DNA of 64,000 nucleotides from Polytrichum commune (taxonomy: Eukaryota > Streptophyta > Polytrichopsida > Polytrichales > Polytrichaceae), in contig OX485804.1 in NCBI GenBank assembly GCA_950295325.1, positions 61,906,533 to 61,970,532 on the forward strand, in the 5' to 3' direction. How positions within the stretch are numbered: position 1 is the first letter of the stretch; every line of letters starts with the position of its first letter. The notes beneath the pieces are model-generated. The model saw only the letters and a list, made by a program, of their open reading frames with translations, was not told the origin of the DNA and did not search any database. The translations under genes were made by a program, and so were the position numbers. Positions 2,455 through 37,800 of the stretch are shown here, in pieces.

Positions 2455-5211
2455 TCAACGTCCATCAGAATGGACTGGAGAAGGACTGCGGGCCTGGTCA
2501 GGAGTTGGACTACGTCGAGGATGCTCTGGAGAAATGCTACGTTGAGGTGGTGAATGGCTCCTGGCTCCAGGTAAACTTGAAATTTGGCGCCGAGGAGGCG
2601 ATGATTTCTCTTCTGGAGATTCACTATCCCTGATTACACAAACACCTCCGTGAGAACAAATCCAATAATTGATACCTTTTAAGTTAGAATTCACTAGATT
2701 CAGTCATCCAAGGACTTCGGTTGGCCTTTAAAAGTCAATGCATTTGAGGGAGGTGATATCCTGAATGTAAAGAGCATACTTACCAAAACAGAAAAGAAAC
2801 CTTCTCAAGAAATTAGTTATAAGCAGCTACTTCTACGCCTTTGATCATTCACTTAGCTACCTGACTGGATCCAAAGGAGATGAATCTCCATTCCTTGCCA
2901 CCACTTCCTTCATTGGTTCTTCAGATTCTAACCACTTTGTTGGACTGCAACTCACGCTACGTTTTCTTGTAGGAATGGCACTTTGCTTCCTTCAAGGGCT
3001 TTGTCCTCTGCTTGGACTGCAAGATATAAACAAAATTCGTTCAGGAATAATGAATATGTACTAATTACTAAAATTCTATGGTAGATTCTCTATCACAAAT
3101 GCAAATATCTTCTTTTTATGTGCAAACCAAAAGTGACTGAAAAATTCTCATATTGAGAATTCTGTGCCTTCAGTTACTGTGCCAGTACCTGTGCCTTGTG
3201 TGAAGGGAAGCTTTAGGTCTATCAGATACACCTCGAAATGAACGCTTTACATCTCCACTTGCACGGCCACGACTTCTGCTTCGACTGCGGCTGATGCTGC
3301 GAGAGGGACTCGGGCGTCTTGAACTATGACCCCGTTGTCTCTCCTTATCTCCTCCACCTCGGCCTCTCGTCACGATACCTTTCACGCTCATAACAGTCAC
3401 GACTTCGACTGCACCGACGTGTATCACGTGGACAACGTTCATTTTCCATAGTGTGCCTTCTATCTCGGCTGCAAAATTGACAAAAAGAACTTTAATTTTG
3501 TTGGAAATCTGAAAAGACAAAAAAGTACAGCACAGCGATGATGCAAGATGAATAGAATAAATATCGACACCTTGGTTACGTTGTTATTGATGAAGTGCAA
3601 GTAATTCCTAGTGTCTATAAAACTCAAAGGCATGATATAGAAGAAGACATGACCTTGATCAACACTGTTTAAGAGCAACCAGAAGAGAAGCTAGCAATAC
3701 CTTGGGCGCCATGGGCTTTAACTTCTGGATCTACTGACTTTCTTCAAAGTAGTTTCTGTGAATCTTCCTCTTTGACTACAGCACATCAGGAAAGAAGGAA
3801 TTACCAGGTGTCAAGACACATTTGTCAGAAAATGTTAGCTGCCAAGTATTAATAACTCATTCTATCACCTTCTAGGATGTTACGTAGTAAATTGAACCGA
3901 TTATCATACCACATGACATATACTGTACATAAAATCCACAGATCCTAGAGGGAAAAACATCCGAAAGACGCACAGAACAGTACCAGCTTCTAAGAAGCTC
4001 AAAGTCACTGCTCAACCAATCATCCTGACTCTAACAATGTTTTCGAAACTATGACTAAACCCTCCAAGATCTGTGCAGCAGCATGCTAAGCATCCGACAA
4101 CTAGTCCTGATATCCTTGGAGGGAATCAGCAACCATATAGGGTGCAGTTGGGTAGTATGTAGAAGGTTTTGAAACAAAACCTAGATGATTCGAGAAATCT
4201 CCTGCAAATAGATTGTGTATAGAGACAAAAACTACTGATTCTACAGAACCTAGCATGTACATCCAACAACAGAACCACATGTGCACAACTATAGCTGAGT
4301 TAGAGCCAAGAACTAATCAAGATGCCTTCTAGAATATAAATGCTGTAGAACTTAGAAATGACAATGTCCTTCTCATGCAAAGGTTGCATGAGATTTGGAA
4401 GCTTGAGATTGAAAGCCCTCCAGAAGGGCATCATCACACCTGCCCAAAATTACACAGCTAAGAAGTAGCTGAAGACTCACATTGGCTCATAATTGCGACC
4501 ATACTTCGCAGTCTGCACGACGATGTGTCTTCCATCAGCTGCCCTCCCTGCATCAAAGTGACATGAATGACGGAGGAATTAGGTGACCGCGATAAGCTTA
4601 CATGTTTCCATCTCCCGACCATACTTCGCATACTGAACCACCATGTCTCGCCCATCAACATTCCTGCCTGCATCGCGGCAGATGAAATGTAACAATACTT
4701 AGCAGTGGCTTCTACATTGTAGATATAATTAAAGCATGGGAAACCGCACGTCATCGACTTAGACTCAGATTACAAGTTTACACCCAAGCTGAAAGAGCCA
4801 CTAGTCACCAAAATCGGTTCCCAACTAAGACAGTCGCAATCAACAGTGACCAAGATTCAAAAGGACAGGTGGTCCACCATCCGAGCGCTCTGTGGCTTTC
4901 TGTGCCTCGTCAGCATACTTGTATCGAACAAATGCAAATCCTCGAGATTCTCCAGTCCTGGAAAGATGACCCACCATTGAAAAGCAAGCAAGTCATCAGC
5001 AGACCACTTTGAAAGCCCAAAAATTCCATTGTCAATCTGTAGCTTCTGAAGAATCCATGTCAACTTGTTTGCATAATGAAGGGAACCTCACAGGTAATAA
5101 AATGCAAGACAAATGAAGCTAGCATTGCCTTCGATCTCTTGGGATAAAAATGCCCACCACCTTCCCGTCTCGATCAAACATTTAGGGGTAAAGATTCATC
5201 TGCACTTGTAC
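2455..5211 (-). pseudogene. SC35-type SR splicing factor, intron-bearing pseudogene
   Basis: SR proteins of the SC35 type bind pre-mRNA through one RRM and recruit spliceosome parts through an arginine-serine tail. Exons on the minus strand, higher coordinate first: 5129-5211 (MFDRDGKVVGIFIPRDRR), 4877-4957 (RNP1 motif RGFAFVRY, then KYADEAQKA), 4602-4667, 4481-4547, 3189-3468 (RS domain), 2861-3016 and 2455-2629, ending SPVHSDGR and TGA. All junctions are phase-compatible. Lesions: a one-base frameshift near 5185-5190; a GC instead of GT donor after 5129; a frameshift near 3345-3360 between a PRWRR frame and a DKERQRG frame; an in-frame TGA at 2992-2994, a likely CpG decay of CGA. The first exon carrying RNP2 is missing. 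Because introns are kept, this is a segmental copy rather than a retrocopy. A working gene with assembly errors is the alternative. Confidence 0.82.
4481..4667 (-). repeat. tandemly duplicated RRM exon in the SC35 relic
   Basis: Two adjacent exons encode the same end of the RRM. The 4602-4667 exon (66 nt) reads RNVDGRDMVVQYAKYGRE and the 4481-4547 exon (67 nt) reads RAADGRHIVVQTAKYGRN. Each has a GCAG acceptor, and the donors are GTAAGC and GTGAGT. They are about 120 bp apart from start to start. The first is phase 1 to 1, so it can be included or skipped without changing frame. The second ends in phase 2, which fits the next exon (EPI then RDRR), so it cannot be dropped. The pattern is a 120-bp tandem duplication of exon plus flanking intron. 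Confidence 0.8.
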
Positions 5212-27187: not shown

Positions 27188-27477
27188 GTTGATACCAGTG
27201 TTGGTCTGTTATCTAAAATTGGACATACCAGTCGGTTCTAAGTAATAAAGATTCCTTAGAAACTAGGATTAGTTGGATCCATGGTATTACAAACAATGCA
27301 TTTTTGCAAATACAGTAATGATATGAATACTGTAATTTTGGGGAAATTCCAAAGAGCATAAGAAGCTCAATATTATAAGATATGATACCAGACATATATG
27401 AACACGGGTCGGATATGTTTTACCCCACTGAGAGTATTGATTTGGTGAGAGTATTGATTGGCAAACCACTTATGTGC

Positions 27478-27655
27478 ACCATTACAAAACAATTATGTAA
27501 ACAATTACGAGTCTCTGTAAACAATTCGCTCTCTGTAAACACTTACAGTCTCTGTAAACAATTCGCTCTCTGTAAACACTTACAGTCTCTGTAAACAATT
27601 CGCTCTGTAAATAATTACGAGTCTCTGTAAACAATTCGCTCTCTGTAATTATTCA
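27478..27655. repeat. subterminal minisatellite of the hAT element
   Basis: Repeated words CTCTGTAAACAATTCGCT and CTCTGTAAACACTTACAGT alternate, giving a period near 42 bp made of two related 21-bp halves. Such subterminal repeats in hAT elements commonly bind transposase; that role here is inference. Confidence 0.8.
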
Positions 27656-27902
27656 GACAGACAATTGAGCTACAGATAGACAAAGCAACTACAAGCCACA
27701 GGCTTCACAAAGCCTTTTTCATAATACATTCACACATGTCACATAAACCCATCAAAGATATACAGCAGGAATTTCCTTTGCACAAACAACAACATCATTT
27801 TCATGTGCATCACAAAGCATCACAAAGCATCGTCATGCCCTTCGTAATCAAATTTAGTCCTAAATAATCAGCCTGCTATTCAATCTAATCAGCTTACAAT
27901 TC

Positions 27903-30900
27903 CTACTCCTCATCTTCAGCCTGCTCTTCAAAGTAACCAGCTTCCTCAATCTCATCTTCAGCTTCGTCAACTATTTCCATCTCTTTGGCAAAATAATCCT
28001 TGACATCTTTGACCACCTCAGTGACCTCACATTCATGTCTTGAGTCATCAGGCCAATTCTTGTTGATCATGATCAAGCTATCCAAATTATTTAAACCAAG
28101 GCGGCAACGACGCAGACTTGTAAGCACACCTGCAATGCTAAAAATCCGCTCCGTTTCAATTTGTGACCCTGGAATAGCCAAAATTTGACGTGCAAGAAAA
28201 GAAACTGAAGGGAAACGCGATGCATTGAGCTTCCACCACGTCAGAGGCTCCTCCGCTTCTAGATGCACTATAGTGAGACGCCGGAAAAGTGACAGCTCCG
28301 CAATGAGAATGCCCTCGCAAGCTTCTTCAGCAGACGCTGGAGCACCAAATAGAATATTTGACGGAGCATGATCAAGAGTTGTGGTTGGGGACCCGCCAGG
28401 GTTCAGGAACTTGTGCACCTTCACAAGGTAAGGAATCAAAATTTTCTTGTCATACTCCTCCACCACTTGCTTCGCTTTGGCAACTCCCACGTAGTCAATC
28501 ACGTACTCCAGCCCCTTAAATCGAGGGTCCAACATCAAGGACAACATATTGTGAGCTTGGTCTGCCACAAATTGTAGAGAAAATCGGAGAAACGGCTTCA
28601 TGACATCCACAGCTGTCCTCGCCATCCTCGCCTTCAGAATTTCAATCTCAGACTCGAAGTCACCCACCTGAAAAAATTGGACACCCTCAGTAAAGCTACG
28701 GAGGTTGAGGCAAATAAAATGCAAATAAAATACAAAGGCAGAGGTAGACCAAATTCATGTCCACAGGTAGACCAAATTCATGTATACAATATTAACACAA
28801 TCCTAGCTCCTGGTGATTGTTCCATTGTTCCTCAAAGTCCTTGACATGATAGAGACTGGAGTTGAAGGAACAATTGTAAGTTAAAAGATGAATAATGCCT
28901 CAGTACACTTGGTTTGTTAATGTGACATAGCAATCCACCTATATGAGAACTGTACCAGTATAGAACTCCACAGCCCCAAAGAATCCCATATTACTCGAGG
29001 GGACTCTGCACAATGGTGACATCTCAAACAGAGCCAAGAAGTTTACATTACTGACAATATCCAAGGATGCAAGTAATGCCGTCACAGTGAGCATGATTAG
29101 GAGCTGCATCTGCTGCCCTTTCGATATGAAAGAACTGCTTTTGTAATTAAATAAATAAATAAAATTCAACAATAACTGTGCTCAGCCGTGAAGAGTCCCA
29201 ATGTGGGAGTTCAACTGTGGCTAATCATTCACAGCCTCCAGAAAATTGTAGTACATGTACAATGATAGAAAACACAATCCGTTACGATTTGCAGAACAAG
29301 CTAAATGACTCCAGTCTTAGCTGAACAAAGGATCACAATTGTGAGCAAAGATGATATGTTCCCTTTCTTGATTGTGTCGATTTGCAGCCCCCGAGAGGAC
29401 ACTTATATCATGAATAGATGCAAGACAATGACAATTATGATTCCATACTATAATGCATTATGAGGAGATGATGGGGTCTAAGCATGAGACTGAAGGCATG
29501 AAGAAATTGATTTTTGTAGTTCTTTAGCTACGGCATCTTGTGGAAATTGGAATAATTTGAGAGTTACATTCTAAAGAGAACAACAGTAACTCTCACTCTG
29601 GTATGTTTTATGTGAATTCCTAAACATCTTATCTAATCTTGAGTTGGAAACTGGAGGTTGCATGCAACTCACAAGTTACCACCGAACAAGGACACAAATG
29701 GGTCAAGAATACTTCGCAAGGGGTTTACAAAGATCACAGAGGCAATTCATGTTCTCTTCCATCTAAATTGACATAACCTACTTGAGATGTGCTTTCTAAT
29801 TACGGTAGACTCGAAGTCACCCACCTGAAGAGGGTGAAGTACGCGTGACCTCTGTTCATGCACTCCCTGCAACTCGATAGACATGCGGAAGGCAGCAGCT
29901 AGTGCATCTGAAAGCAACCAATATCCACGAGTTTGATTAAGCACACATTGTTGCACAACTGGATTGAGGGTTTGAGTGACGGTTCTTGCTGTAGCCCACG
30001 TCATCCCGCTCGGTACGCGAGCTTGCAACTTCAAAGACTGCCTTCTGTAGCAAATGCTGATGGCGTCCGCATACTCTTGGGTCTCCTGGAACAACACAAC
30101 TTTAGAGGCAAATCTAGTCTTCACAGGTGTTTTCAACTTCCTAGTAGGCAACCCAACATCGATGCAAGCTTTATCCCACTCCTGACGGCCTTTACCCGAC
30201 TTCTTCGTCCAAGTGATGCAAGCCTGCAATGATTTCTGGGCATTCTTCAACGACACTTCCTTCATCCCCTTGCACATTTGCTCGTCATTGGTAGCATACT
30301 GGCAGACCTTGGACATAATGTGACCAAAGCAGGCAGATGAAAAAGGTTTAGCTAACCCAAGAATGTCACAAGAAACTGTAAGTTGTAGAGCACGCTCAAG
30401 CGTTGCCAAATTGGCACCCTCGTCTTTCACACAAGCAACAATCTTGTCTGTCAGTTTAAATTTGTCCAACAGAGGCTTTACAATTTCGGCCAAAGCAGCA
30501 CCACTAGTATCCTGTGCCTCAAAGAGTCCGACAGTCACATGGCGAGGCACCCAACAGTCATCGATGAAGTTCACGACTAAGGCGAATGTATCCCAACCAG
30601 TTCTAGACATCCACAAATCGAAGGTGATGCTAGCAGTCTGGCAACTACCAATCAGAGGCAATACAAAGCGATCCATCGTCTTCTCTAGCATGGCAGGTAT
30701 ATGCTCGCGGACAAGTTGCTTGCGACTTGGACAGATGACCTTTGGGTCACGGCGCATCACAAGTCGCCGCAACCAAGCCGATTCTACTATCGACAACGAT
30801 TCATACCCCTTGGCAATAAACAACACAAGGTCTTCAATGAATCGTTGTTGTTGCACATCATTCTTTGCATAGGGTTTAGTGTTACCGAAATATGCTGTGA

Positions 30901-31426
30901 TGGATGACGGTGGTGCGCCTTTTCGCTTTTTAGTTTTTTGCCGAGCAGTCTCTCCTTCGTCGGCCTTCGATTCTCGCACATAGCGAGCGAACTCCTCCGC
31001 ATGCTCGTTCTCAACGTGGGTCTTCATGCTCGTGATCCCATGAGCAGGGTTATATTGCAGAATCCCCTTTCTGTTGCGAGTGCCCCTACCAGAAGAGTTA
31101 CTGAATTCTGCTTCAGTTGGGTGACAAACCCAACACCTCAGCTTTTGTGTCTCTCTCACGTTAATGCTCATATCCTCTCCCTTCAGTCGGAAGAAAGCCC
31201 ACACGGCCGAGCTTCGGTGGTAAGGTGTCCAGAAGGATTGAGTGGCCTTCAAGGAAACATAACAAGCTCGCCAAGCAGCGTCGTCTTCAGCCGCCTGCCC
31301 TTCGCCAAGTGGCCGCTGTGCATCCTCACGGCCTTCGGTAATGCGTGCCGAATCTTGTCTTTCCAAGTCGATGCTCTCGACGTTTCCTGCATCGTCATCG
31401 AAACTTGGTTGAACACTGCTCGACAT
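27903..31426 (-). CDS. hAT transposase (BED zinc finger, RICESLEEPER-like), two exons
   Basis: The protein cuts and rejoins the element ends in the nucleus. Exons are 29825-31426 and 27903-28667, joined in phase 0 (LHPLQ then VGDFES), giving 788 residues and a TAG stop. A start ten codons upstream is possible; MSSSVQPSF is preferred because the extra residues look like leader. A BED zinc finger spans about residues 68-142 (C98, C101, H137, H142). The RNase H-like core shows TFDLW (D270) and VKDEGAN (D335), then LDPRFKGL at 579-586. The hAT dimerisation region runs about 672-725 with WWKLNASRFPSVSFLA and ETERIFSIAG. The tail is acidic. No stop or frameshift was seen. A domesticated gene is possible, but the intact ends argue for a mobile element. 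Confidence 0.92.
28668..29824 (-). other. transposase intron bounded by a 23-bp direct repeat
   Basis: The 1,157-nt intron has a CAG-GTGGGT donor and a TTTTTTCAG acceptor. The same 23 bases, plus-strand 28650-28672 and 29807-29829, lie at both boundaries and include the CAG-GTGGGTGACTTCG junction, so the donor and acceptor fall at the same place in each copy. If the intron is retained, translation runs about 25 codons past the donor (ending RWKRT) and stops. No known element was recognised inside. Confidence 0.85.
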
Positions 31427-31960
31427 GGTAAGTGAATACAAAAAAATGAACCCCAACCTCAGATTCCAAGCCGCAACCCCAGATTTCCAACCCCAACCTC
31501 AGATCTACAAGCCACAAACTGAAATGCTTCACAAAACACAAAACCTAGAATTTAACAAGAAGAAGGAGGCATACTCTTTGAAGTACAGATCTGCTCCCGC
31601 TTTCGGCATTACAACAAACACCCACTCCGCGTCTTGCATTTACAGGCACTCCGCTCAACATTGAAGAACACTCTCTTTGTATTAACAATCCACCAACAAT
31701 TTCTCATCACTCATAACCTACTATACCTGCTCTCAACAAATGCAGCCAACAACCGGTTTCAATAATCACAATGTCGAGGAGAAAACATCCCAATAGTGGT
31801 AGCTGCCGCAGTAACCCGTGTGCACATACACGGCACGGTATGAATAAGAACCGGGTTTCGAGTTTAGGGTTACTGACCAGGTCGGGTTTTGGATACCCTA
31901 TTGATACCCTCGGGACATACCCGCCGAGACCCCAGATAACAGACCAACACTGGTTGATAC

Positions 31961-34853: not shown

Positions 34854-37800
34854 ATGCCGGCATCCGCAGCATGGGCGAGGCCCGAGGATCTGGTGGAGAG
34901 TTTGAGCTCTCTGGACAACACAGCGAGGTTGAAGGCACTTCGGGATGTCAAAAACCAAATCATCGGGAACAAGACGAAGAAACTGTCCTACATAAAACTG
35001 GGGGCGGTGCCAAGGGTGGTGGAGATTCTAGCTTGTGAGACCGAAATCCCTTTGTTGGTGCAGTCGGCTGCTGCGGTGGGCAGCTTTGCCTGCGGGATCG
35101 ATGCTGGTGTGAAGGCTGTGTTGGATAGTGGTGTCTTGCCCCACCTTCTCAAGATGTTGCAAAATGGAAATAGCAAGGTAAAGCATACATCATACATCAT
35201 CCTCTCCATCATCATCACTTCGATGTCTTGTAAACCTCGGTATGTGTATGTGCTTAAATTAGCAAGGTATCACCATCATCATCGTCATCATCATCATCAG
35301 CGCCCATCATAATGTGCACAATGGGCTTGGATTGAATGCATCCACTACCATCAAGTCTCAAGGAGTTTCATGTATTTACTTTGTTTTCCTTTGAGGTTTA
35401 AGCAATTAGGATTCATGTATGGTGGTTGTGATGAAGTTCGAGATTCAAGTTGGTGCTTGCAAAGTGGTGTAAATGTAGTGGGGTCAATGGAGATGTGTGC
35501 TTTAGGGTCTTCAAGTGGGAGGGGTGTTGCATAATGGAGATTGAAAGATATCATCATCATCATCATCGTCTATTATCATAATTTGTAGATTGGGCTTGGG
35601 ATTGAATTATGTCACCCACTTTTATCAAGTCTCAAGGATTTTAGTTTTTTGTTATCCTTTGAGGTTTAAGCAATCAGGATTTATGTGTGGTGTTGGTGAT
35701 GTTCGAGATATAACTTGATACCTGCAAAGTGGTAGAAATGTAGGAGGGCCAATGGAGATGTGTGTTTTAGGGTTTTCAGGTGGGAGGGGTATAAAAGTCT
35801 TGATATGTTTGGCGACAATAATGGCATTGTGGTTATGTGGGGTTGGCCAATTGCATGGAATGAAAGTGAATGTGTTCATGAACATAGATGTTAATCACAA
35901 CATCTCCATACTATTGTGTGTGTGTGTGTGTGTGTGGGTGTTACGTTATGTTCTGGTATCCACAAGTGGAAGGGGTGTGAAAGTGTCTTTGCATGTGGCA
36001 ATGATGATGAATCTGTAGTTATTTGGGGTTGGCCATTTGCATGGAACAAAAATGAGTGTGTTCATGCACATGGATGTTAATCATCACCGCGTTTCCCATT
36101 TGTGGGTTTCATTTTATGTTATGTTGCACACTTATGGGATTATTACTGGTGTTGTGGCAGGTTGTGGAAGCATGCGCGCGTTCTTTGAAGATGATATTCC
36201 ACTCGCGTTTAGCGCCAAAGAGTGACATGTTTCAAAGCCACCGCATGGAACTGATACTCCAGCTTCTCAACCATAAAAATGAGAATGTATCTGAAGTTGC
36301 GGCATGCGTGCTCGCCCGATGCTGTGAAACAGCAGAGCATCAGCAGGTGTTTGCGAATGCAGGGGGCTTGCGAAGCCTTGTCGTTCTTCTATCAGGCTCC
36401 GTTAAGACGAGAGAGGCGGCTTTGGATGCATTGGCTGCGTTAACGAAAAACAACAAGCACCTTTCGGAGACGGTCATCAAGATGAACCACGGGGAGTCTT
36501 TGCGCTTGATTATTAAGCTTCTTAAGGAAAAACCACCCGTCACTCGGCTCCTAGCCTGCACGTGCCTAATAAACATTGAGAAGGCGTGTCCAGAGAAATT
36601 TAAGTTCGCCTCTTCAGACTTGCTAACGCGAGACAGCATGTTGGTGATTTTGTTGAAGTTGCTGGATGAACCTGGCCAAGTTGGAGAGGATGCTCCAGGT
36701 GATCCATCCTACCCACAACTATTTTTTACTTGGTTTCATAGATTTTAAAACCTGGTTGCAGCTGTAGAATAAACATCATACCATGTTGGAATAGGTCCAT
36801 GTGCCGATGGATACATGAGGCCTGAAATTGATCATCCTTGTTTACGTTTCCACATCCACTTAACCTAATGAAGTTTAAAATTGTGTGTTCTATGAAAATC
36901 AGGTGTTTTGGCACATTTGTTCTCGAATAATGAAGAGCTCCAGAAAAGTGCAGCTGAGCAGAAAGTTGTTGAGAAGTTGGCGAACTTTCTACTACGAGAG
37001 GAAGTTCCCACAAAGCAGCTGGAGGGTGTGTTGTTGGCACTTACTGAATTATGTTCCAGACTTGAGGACAGTAGACGGAACCTGTTGGATTTGCAGGTTT
37101 GTTTTTTGTTATGAAAATCACGCAGTTGAGACAGGATTGTGCAAGCCTTCACATGTATTCATTGTAGTGACAGCAGTTTTCTTTAATCCCCATGTGCACA
37201 TATTTCTGACGTCTCAGCAGCCTCTTTGACCTAATGTTATGATGTCTGGGCAAGGTAGAGAAAATCTCAAAAGTCCTCAATAGGTCACAGTTATCAAAGG
37301 GGTCTAAGACTAAAATTAGATTGGGGATGGGTGTGATAGGACTGAAATGTCTGAACACCTCGTTGGCTTTGGCTGCTCCATTGCTGCTCCGCCCATTTGG
37401 TTAGTCATCTCTCGGGTTGCTACTTCGTCAGGAAATAACTAGACGCAAACGCAAATCATACCTATGGTCCCTATTTGTTGATTTATTTATTTGTTGGGAG
37501 CGTCATACTTGCGCTATGTAAATCTTGCAATTTGATGGGAACACTTATCAACACAGGCCTACTACTCCTACTAGAGTAGACATATATTGATTGTCCAATG
37601 TGACCAAATGCTTTGAGAAGGTAGGATTTTGAACTCAATACTGAAGTTTGGGGTATATACCAGTGTTGGACTGGTATTGTCTTTTTTTTGATATCATTCG
37701 GGTATATATAATGAGGATTTCACATTTTTTGATACCAGAAGGGTATATGAGGAATTTTGTTGTTCTGTACCATTTGGGTCTATATACCATACAAGAGCCT

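Follow-up and report, generated by a model that had tools for sequence, protein, structure and literature searches.

An intron gained in a Polytrichum commune hAT transposase gene, with a host MAP70 gene as its source

Introduction

Where does the DNA of a new intron come from, and how does it acquire its splice sites? Such origins are rarely resolved, because the sources and the empty sites have usually been lost. The question is raised by a hAT transposase gene in the 64,000-nucleotide stretch of Polytrichum commune DNA analyzed here as a whole (the window; assembly GCA_950295325.1, contig OX485804.1, forward strand, positions 61,906,533 to 61,970,532). An earlier note on this DNA had pointed to an intron bounded by an exact repeat and had offered two origins for it, namely insertion with a long target duplication or duplication of a sequence carrying AG-GT.

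Results

A complete hAT element with a repeat-bounded intron

The element is present with both ends on the minus strand (27196..31952; 4,757 bp). It has 19-bp perfect terminal inverted repeats, CAGTGTTGGTCTGTTATCT, and lies between two identical 8-bp target site duplications, GTTGATAC, at 27188..27195 on the left and 31953..31960 on the right. Its transposase gene, also on the minus strand, comprises exon 1 (29825..31426), which ends in CAG, a 1,157-bp GT...AG intron (28668..29824), and exon 2 (27903..28667), which encodes the hATC dimerisation domain and ends in TAG. Removal of the intron yields an open frame of 788 residues in the window copy. In this product, Pfam recognized Dimer_Tnp_hAT (PF05699; E 1.4e-14), and four Hermes/transposase structure chains matched residues 658-739 (E 3.5e-11 to 4.7e-11). 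Short terminal inverted repeats, an 8-bp target duplication and a C-terminal dimerisation domain thus all place the element among the hATs. A zinc finger that the earlier note had named was not recognized by Pfam, which reported only the hAT C-terminal dimerisation domain among matches with E up to 1. The same note's figure of 559 residues for a product that retains the intron, put forward there as a possible repressor, was reproduced by translation from the ATG at 31426; the listed open reading frame for the retained form has 569 residues and starts at the TTG at 31456. Given its perfect terminal repeats, target site duplication and intact frame, the window element looks recently mobile, in agreement with its earlier description as an active-looking transposon. 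In the same region, a tandem array of ~37-bp units (TCTCTGTAAACAATTCG) occupies 27496-27648 in the 3' untranslated part of the element, and open reading frames that resemble armadillo repeats by eye lie at 34854-36748, ~2.9 kb from it.

The two copies of the repeat, AGACTCGAAGTCACCCACCTGAA on the plus strand, were found at 29807..29829 (donor side) and 28650..28672 (acceptor side), both annotated on the minus strand, with 23/23 bases identical and a spacing of 1,157 bp. Read on the minus strand, the repeat is TTCAG|GTGGGTGACTTCGAGTCT. The donor is CAG|GTGGGT, with exon 1 ending at 29825, the acceptor is TTTTTTCAG|GTGGGT, with exon 2 starting at 28667, and the predicted junction 29825/28667 joins CTTCAG to GTGGGTGACTTCGAG. 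As had been claimed, donor and acceptor therefore fall at the same position in two exact 23-bp copies, and removing the intron leaves one copy. This repeat is not a product of chance: in 500 first-order Markov simulations of 5 kb each, with the composition of the repeat's region, the longest exact direct repeat reached 16 bp (mean 12.0), vs. the 23 bp observed. The same 23-bp repeat is also exact in a second copy, L009. The window intron has GT-AG boundaries, a pyrimidine tract and a branch-point-like motif. The tract is modest, with 12/20 pyrimidines before the CAG; the motif, TTTAC, was called by eye against the branch-point consensus and has its A 24 nt from the acceptor. A T run is also present.

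The intron was gained in one clade of the family

We searched the window's own 408-Mb assembly (64 contigs) with the intron and its flanks, which returned 18 matches, and read seven hAT copies at base level, each with both element ends. Four of them carry the intron: the window copy, L009 (C1; 98.7% identical), and L011 and L012 (both C1; 93-97%). Three close relatives, L013 (C1), L014 (C6) and L016 (C5), lack it, and in each of them exons 1 and 2 are contiguous exactly at the predicted junction (in L014, for example, CTTCAGGTTGGAGATTTCGAGTCTGAG). Target site duplications of 8 bp flank all seven copies, five perfect and two with one mismatch; those of the intron-bearing copies are perfect and differ from one another (GTTGATAC, GTTAGAAC, GTTAATAC and ATTCAAAC), marking four insertion sites. 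A protein search of the genome gave 74 matches, with 57 of 580 candidates scored. Among the matches listed, the intron position is covered by 33 copies, 29 of which span residues 520-550 unbroken and without the intron (three of these 29 being the ones read at base level), while the four intron-bearing copies are split there. Every more distant copy scored that covers the site is also intronless. Together, the three empty sites and the 29/33 copies crossing the position as one match demonstrate that the intron was gained, in one clade of the hAT family. The alignment of other genomic copies that the earlier note had proposed thus came out in favor of gain, with a single uninterrupted site in the intronless copies.

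In a tree of the seven copies, the four intron-bearing ones group with an ultrafast bootstrap of 100 in both halves of the coding sequence; the first half also pairs L011 with L012 (98), whereas the second favors a different grouping (52). The frame is intact in the window copy only, L009 having one internal stop and the other five being broken. Intron lengths are nearly equal (1,157, 1,152, 1,161 and 1,162 bp), even though the cores of two lineages are unrelated.

The ends of the intron match a host MAP70 gene

Both ends of the insert in the window match one non-hAT locus, on C3. The donor-side end (29752..29808, plus strand; 57 bp) is 93% identical to an intron of the gene at this locus (L015), whose sense is on the plus strand, and the acceptor-side end (28670..28722, plus strand; 53 bp) is 92% identical to a coding exon of the same gene. 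The locus is a gene for the plant-specific protein MAP70 (Pfam PF07058, E 8.2e-61), and the matched DNA belongs partly to a coding exon and partly to the intron after it, in antisense to the transposase. The acceptor-side end provides the pyrimidine tract and the branch-point-like TTTAC. Considerably more of the gene survives in L011 and L012, whose introns keep 459 bp of MAP70 (286 bp at 97% and 173 bp at 91-92%). These copies retain the MAP70 exon-intron junction, including the exon's own donor site in antisense, so the capture took place at the DNA level. For the MAP70 paralogues on C5 and C7, the match is limited to the exon. The donor-side end shows three differences from the MAP70 sequence, unpolarised as to direction of change, that are common to the window copy, L009, L011 and L012 and fit a single capture. 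On sequence similarity, then, the source of the intron is the host MAP70 gene on C3, and with one copy of the site in three relatives and inserted DNA traceable to MAP70, insertion with a long target duplication, the first of the two origins offered in the earlier note, is supported. Target and MAP70 have TCTTC in common at the acceptor-side junction and CT at the donor-side junction, so the true duplication measures 18-23 bp.

The long-duplication footprint itself is complete in two of the four intron-bearing copies, the window copy and L009; in L011 and L012 it is partial, the donor-side copy being interrupted by captured DNA. There, the donor-side repeat reads CAGGTGGGT (CAAGTGGGT in L011), followed by 531 bp, AGTCT and the MAP70 DNA. 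The 531-bp fragment is 89% identical to sequence on C6 that comprises the 3' end of a gene and DNA downstream of it; other open reading frames of this gene match pyridine-nucleotide oxidoreductase (Pyr_redox_2, E 1.4e-10), its last one gave no Pfam match, and we take the gene to resemble FSP1/AIFM2. In the window copy and L009, the DNA between the MAP70-derived ends differs from MAP70, and the core has been swapped: 28837..29638 is 79.5% identical to C2:18996402-18997275 (L010), and 29640..29734 is 80% identical to C1:22528456-22528561 (L017), the gene upstream of which presumably resembles MOR1. By these matches, the content of the intron has been changed at least twice by other captured DNA, and all four copies have nothing of the insert in common except its splice-site ends. 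An AGT before the MAP70-derived CTAC is present in all four copies and absent in MAP70, and this is best explained if the full duplication predated the second fragment of L011 and L012.

Mosaicism and further introns in the family

Between the window/L009 pair and the L011/L012 pair, the first 1,000 nt of the coding sequence contain 77 fixed differences and the other 1,367 contain 10. This roughly tenfold drop falls at coding nucleotides 1000-1070 (window 30357-30427), and the window element therefore looks like a mosaic of two family lineages, recombined inside exon 1 and not at the intron.

Other subfamilies have introns elsewhere. In a sister subfamily, six copies share their own 1-kb intron at residue 374 (L043, G000:C5:33132300-33133800), which is 99-100% identical between copies and has thus probably moved recently. 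No source was detected for it, the genome matches being its own six copies only. An intron of 0.3 kb, missing from the window copy, occurs at residue 618 in a more distant subfamily (L044, G000:C7:19134100-19134900). One copy of each was read at its boundaries, which have 7 bp, AGGTATG, in common at residue 374 and only AGGT at residue 618; long boundary repeats are thus not general for introns of this family. The intronless copy L013 (G000:C1:74014000-74021000) contains two insertions of another kind. A 340-bp gap at element positions 2950-3330, in exon 1, corresponds to a small element with poly-G/poly-C inverted ends and its own 8-bp duplication, GACTAGAT; at element positions 145-1317, in the 5' leader, an insert with the ends CACTACAAGAAA and TTTCTTGTAGTG, flanked by CAT, resembles a CACTA element.

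Substitution patterns suggest selection and splicing

Over 1,839 nonsynonymous and 528 synonymous sites, the window copy and L009 differ by ~13.5 nonsynonymous and ~14.5 synonymous changes (binomial test against neutrality, at most 13 of 28: P 3e-4). Along the path of exon 2 from the L011/L012 split to the window copy, we counted 1 nonsynonymous and 4 synonymous changes (P 0.01; 5 changes), and with a stricter outgroup 1 nonsynonymous and 3 synonymous (P 0.04; 4 changes). In exon 2 alone, the window copy and L009 differ by 3.5 synonymous and 3.5 nonsynonymous changes. The same exon revealed no such constraint between the broken copies L011 and L012 (2.5 synonymous, 15.5 nonsynonymous). These patterns suggest continued selection on the transposase once the intron was in place, and hence that the window intron is probably spliced. 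Considering the stop in L009 and the broken frames of the five other copies, splicing could have failed in most copies.

Discussion

We propose that the intron was gained when a staggered break was repaired with captured MAP70 DNA, and that it then spread by transposition; we give this reading a probability of roughly 0.8. The break would have occurred in an intronless hAT transposase coding sequence, at CTTCAG/GTGGGTGACTTCGAGTCT, and would have been patched with ~695 bp of host MAP70 DNA, part coding exon and part following intron, in antisense, with ~18-23 bp of the target duplicated on both sides. To judge from the footprint, the duplication may have been made by a staggered break or by two overlapping repair tracts after excision. 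Since the duplicated stretch carries AG|GT, one copy would have served as donor and the other as acceptor. Reversal of the MAP70 exon would have turned its lysine codons, AAG AAA, into TTTCTT and so given the pyrimidine tract. Transposition of the element would then have carried the new intron to further sites. Later, one lineage (the window copy and L009) swapped the intron core for other DNA and another (L011 and L012) took in the 3' end of the oxidoreductase gene. We infer that the full duplication was ancestral to all four intron-bearing copies; given the interrupted donor-side repeat in L011 and L012, a shorter ancestral footprint of ~9-13 bp, lengthened in the window lineage by conversion, is also conceivable.

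Pursued further, that last point becomes an alternative account of the first insertion, which would have had the two-fragment form of L011 and L012 (MAP70 and the 3' end of the oxidoreductase gene) and would have duplicated ~9-13 bp; the window lineage would have acquired its 23-bp copy afterwards, through conversion or a template switch involving exon 2 or an intronless copy. Such an order would suit the exact placement of the second fragment between CAGGTGGGT and AGTCT of the donor-side repeat, as well as the family's signs of mosaicism. We nevertheless consider it unlikely, because an ancestral full duplication explains the AGT beside CTAC in all four copies but not in MAP70, and because exon 1 near the donor is not divergent between the lineages, with no breakpoint seen there.

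It is likewise doubtful that the insertion went unspliced and disabled the transposase, so that the copies, as non-autonomous passengers, depended on intact relatives for their movement. Mobilisation in trans can occur among hAT elements, and the frames of L009, L011 and L012 are broken. However, GT-AG removal restores the window frame exactly, the substitution patterns point to selection between the window copy and L009 and on exon 2 after the gain, and the sole insert parts kept in common by all four copies are the splice-site ends.

Could the intron instead be ancestral to the family and have been cleanly lost from the intronless copies, for example by recombination with cDNA? Loss through cDNA would likewise leave the junction precisely empty. 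We regard this as very improbable, since 29 of the 33 site-covering copies among the matches listed, including all the more distant ones scored, lack it, both splice sites lie inside a direct repeat, and the sequence can be traced to a host MAP70 gene, in which it forms exon and intron. It is scarcely credible that a transposable element or introner inserted here and duplicated 23 bp of its target, for while the same insert ends do occur outside hAT, they do so in the MAP70 host gene, both ends were found only in hAT copies and this source at the sensitivity of the genome search, and the insert has no terminal repeats or poly(A) by eye.

Three further candidates were rejected. Tandem duplication of exon sequence, the earlier note's second origin, fails because the insert is not a copy of the flanking exon, self-comparison of 28600-29900 finding only the 23-bp match. 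A retroposed MAP70 transcript would not keep MAP70 intron DNA, as the fragment does, and the fragment has no poly(A). Were the repeat a by-product of joining intronless and intron-bearing elements, the divergence step would be expected at the donor and not at coding nucleotides 1000-1070.

Returning to repair with captured MAP70 DNA as the preferred origin, a broader idea can be put forward tentatively, as possible rather than probable: transposase genes may be intron nurseries, in which gap repair after excision repeatedly patches host DNA in at AG/GT sites, overlapping tracts duplicate splice sites, and transposition multiplies and reshuffles the resulting introns. Consistent with this idea, three subfamilies have introns at three positions (residues about 374, 534 and 618), and the residue-534 intron described here has, in one lineage or another, incorporated sequence of at least three further origins in the genome.

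In this single genome, the empty site, the donor gene, the duplicated splice site and copies at several insertion sites are found side by side, as are two later stages where other DNA has taken over part or most of the donor sequence. A young intron can therefore lose its traceable origin within a few per cent divergence, and an intron gained in a mobile gene can multiply without being mobile itself.

Among known systems, the closest is staggered-break intron gain, known from Daphnia (PMC4202315), where the repeats measure 4-12 bp and most sources are unknown. Reported exon-intron repeats of this type number 33 and span 4 to 12 bp, and a review lists staggered-break gain and tandem AGGT duplication among seven intron-gain mechanisms (PMC3443670). 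The present case shares with staggered-break gain an insertion at a break, direct repeats at opposite ends of the intron, and later breaks and insertions within the intron, which turn it into a mosaic. It differs in the length of the repeat (23 bp, of which 18-23 bp is true duplication) and in having a source gene identified by sequence match; moreover, the gene that gained the intron is mobile, so that, unlike in those cases, the intron is found at several sites. Tandem AGGT duplication likewise lets a duplicated AG|GT give both splice sites, but here the DNA between the copies is a fragment of another gene and not exon sequence.

The splice sites of introners come from target duplications. 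Introners are elements that make introns (PMC9860276), and they resemble the present case in that new introns arise from inserted DNA with a target duplication taking part in splicing. Here, a single capture appears to have been multiplied by hAT, and no self-mobile insert family was found; at its sensitivity, the genome search did not turn up the insert as an intron dispersed among unrelated genes.

Pack-TYPE elements and transduplication also place host gene fragments in DNA transposons (PMC8903248, PMC2572040). Pack-TYPE elements are described as non-autonomous, whereas here the element's frame is intact and the fragment sits within its transposase gene, where it has the form of an intron. 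A clade-specific putative intron gain has been described in CACTA transposases (PMC4158355), with no source named and no transposable element identified in the introns in the accessible part of that paper. Both introns are specific to one transposase clade; what distinguishes ours is that insert, source and empty sites can all be seen. In a limited search that covered few subscription papers, we saw no report of a transposase-gene intron traced to an identified host gene fragment. The mechanism is thus known in kind, and what is new is that the source is resolved, that the duplication is longer, that the intron spread by transposition and that its remodelling can be seen.
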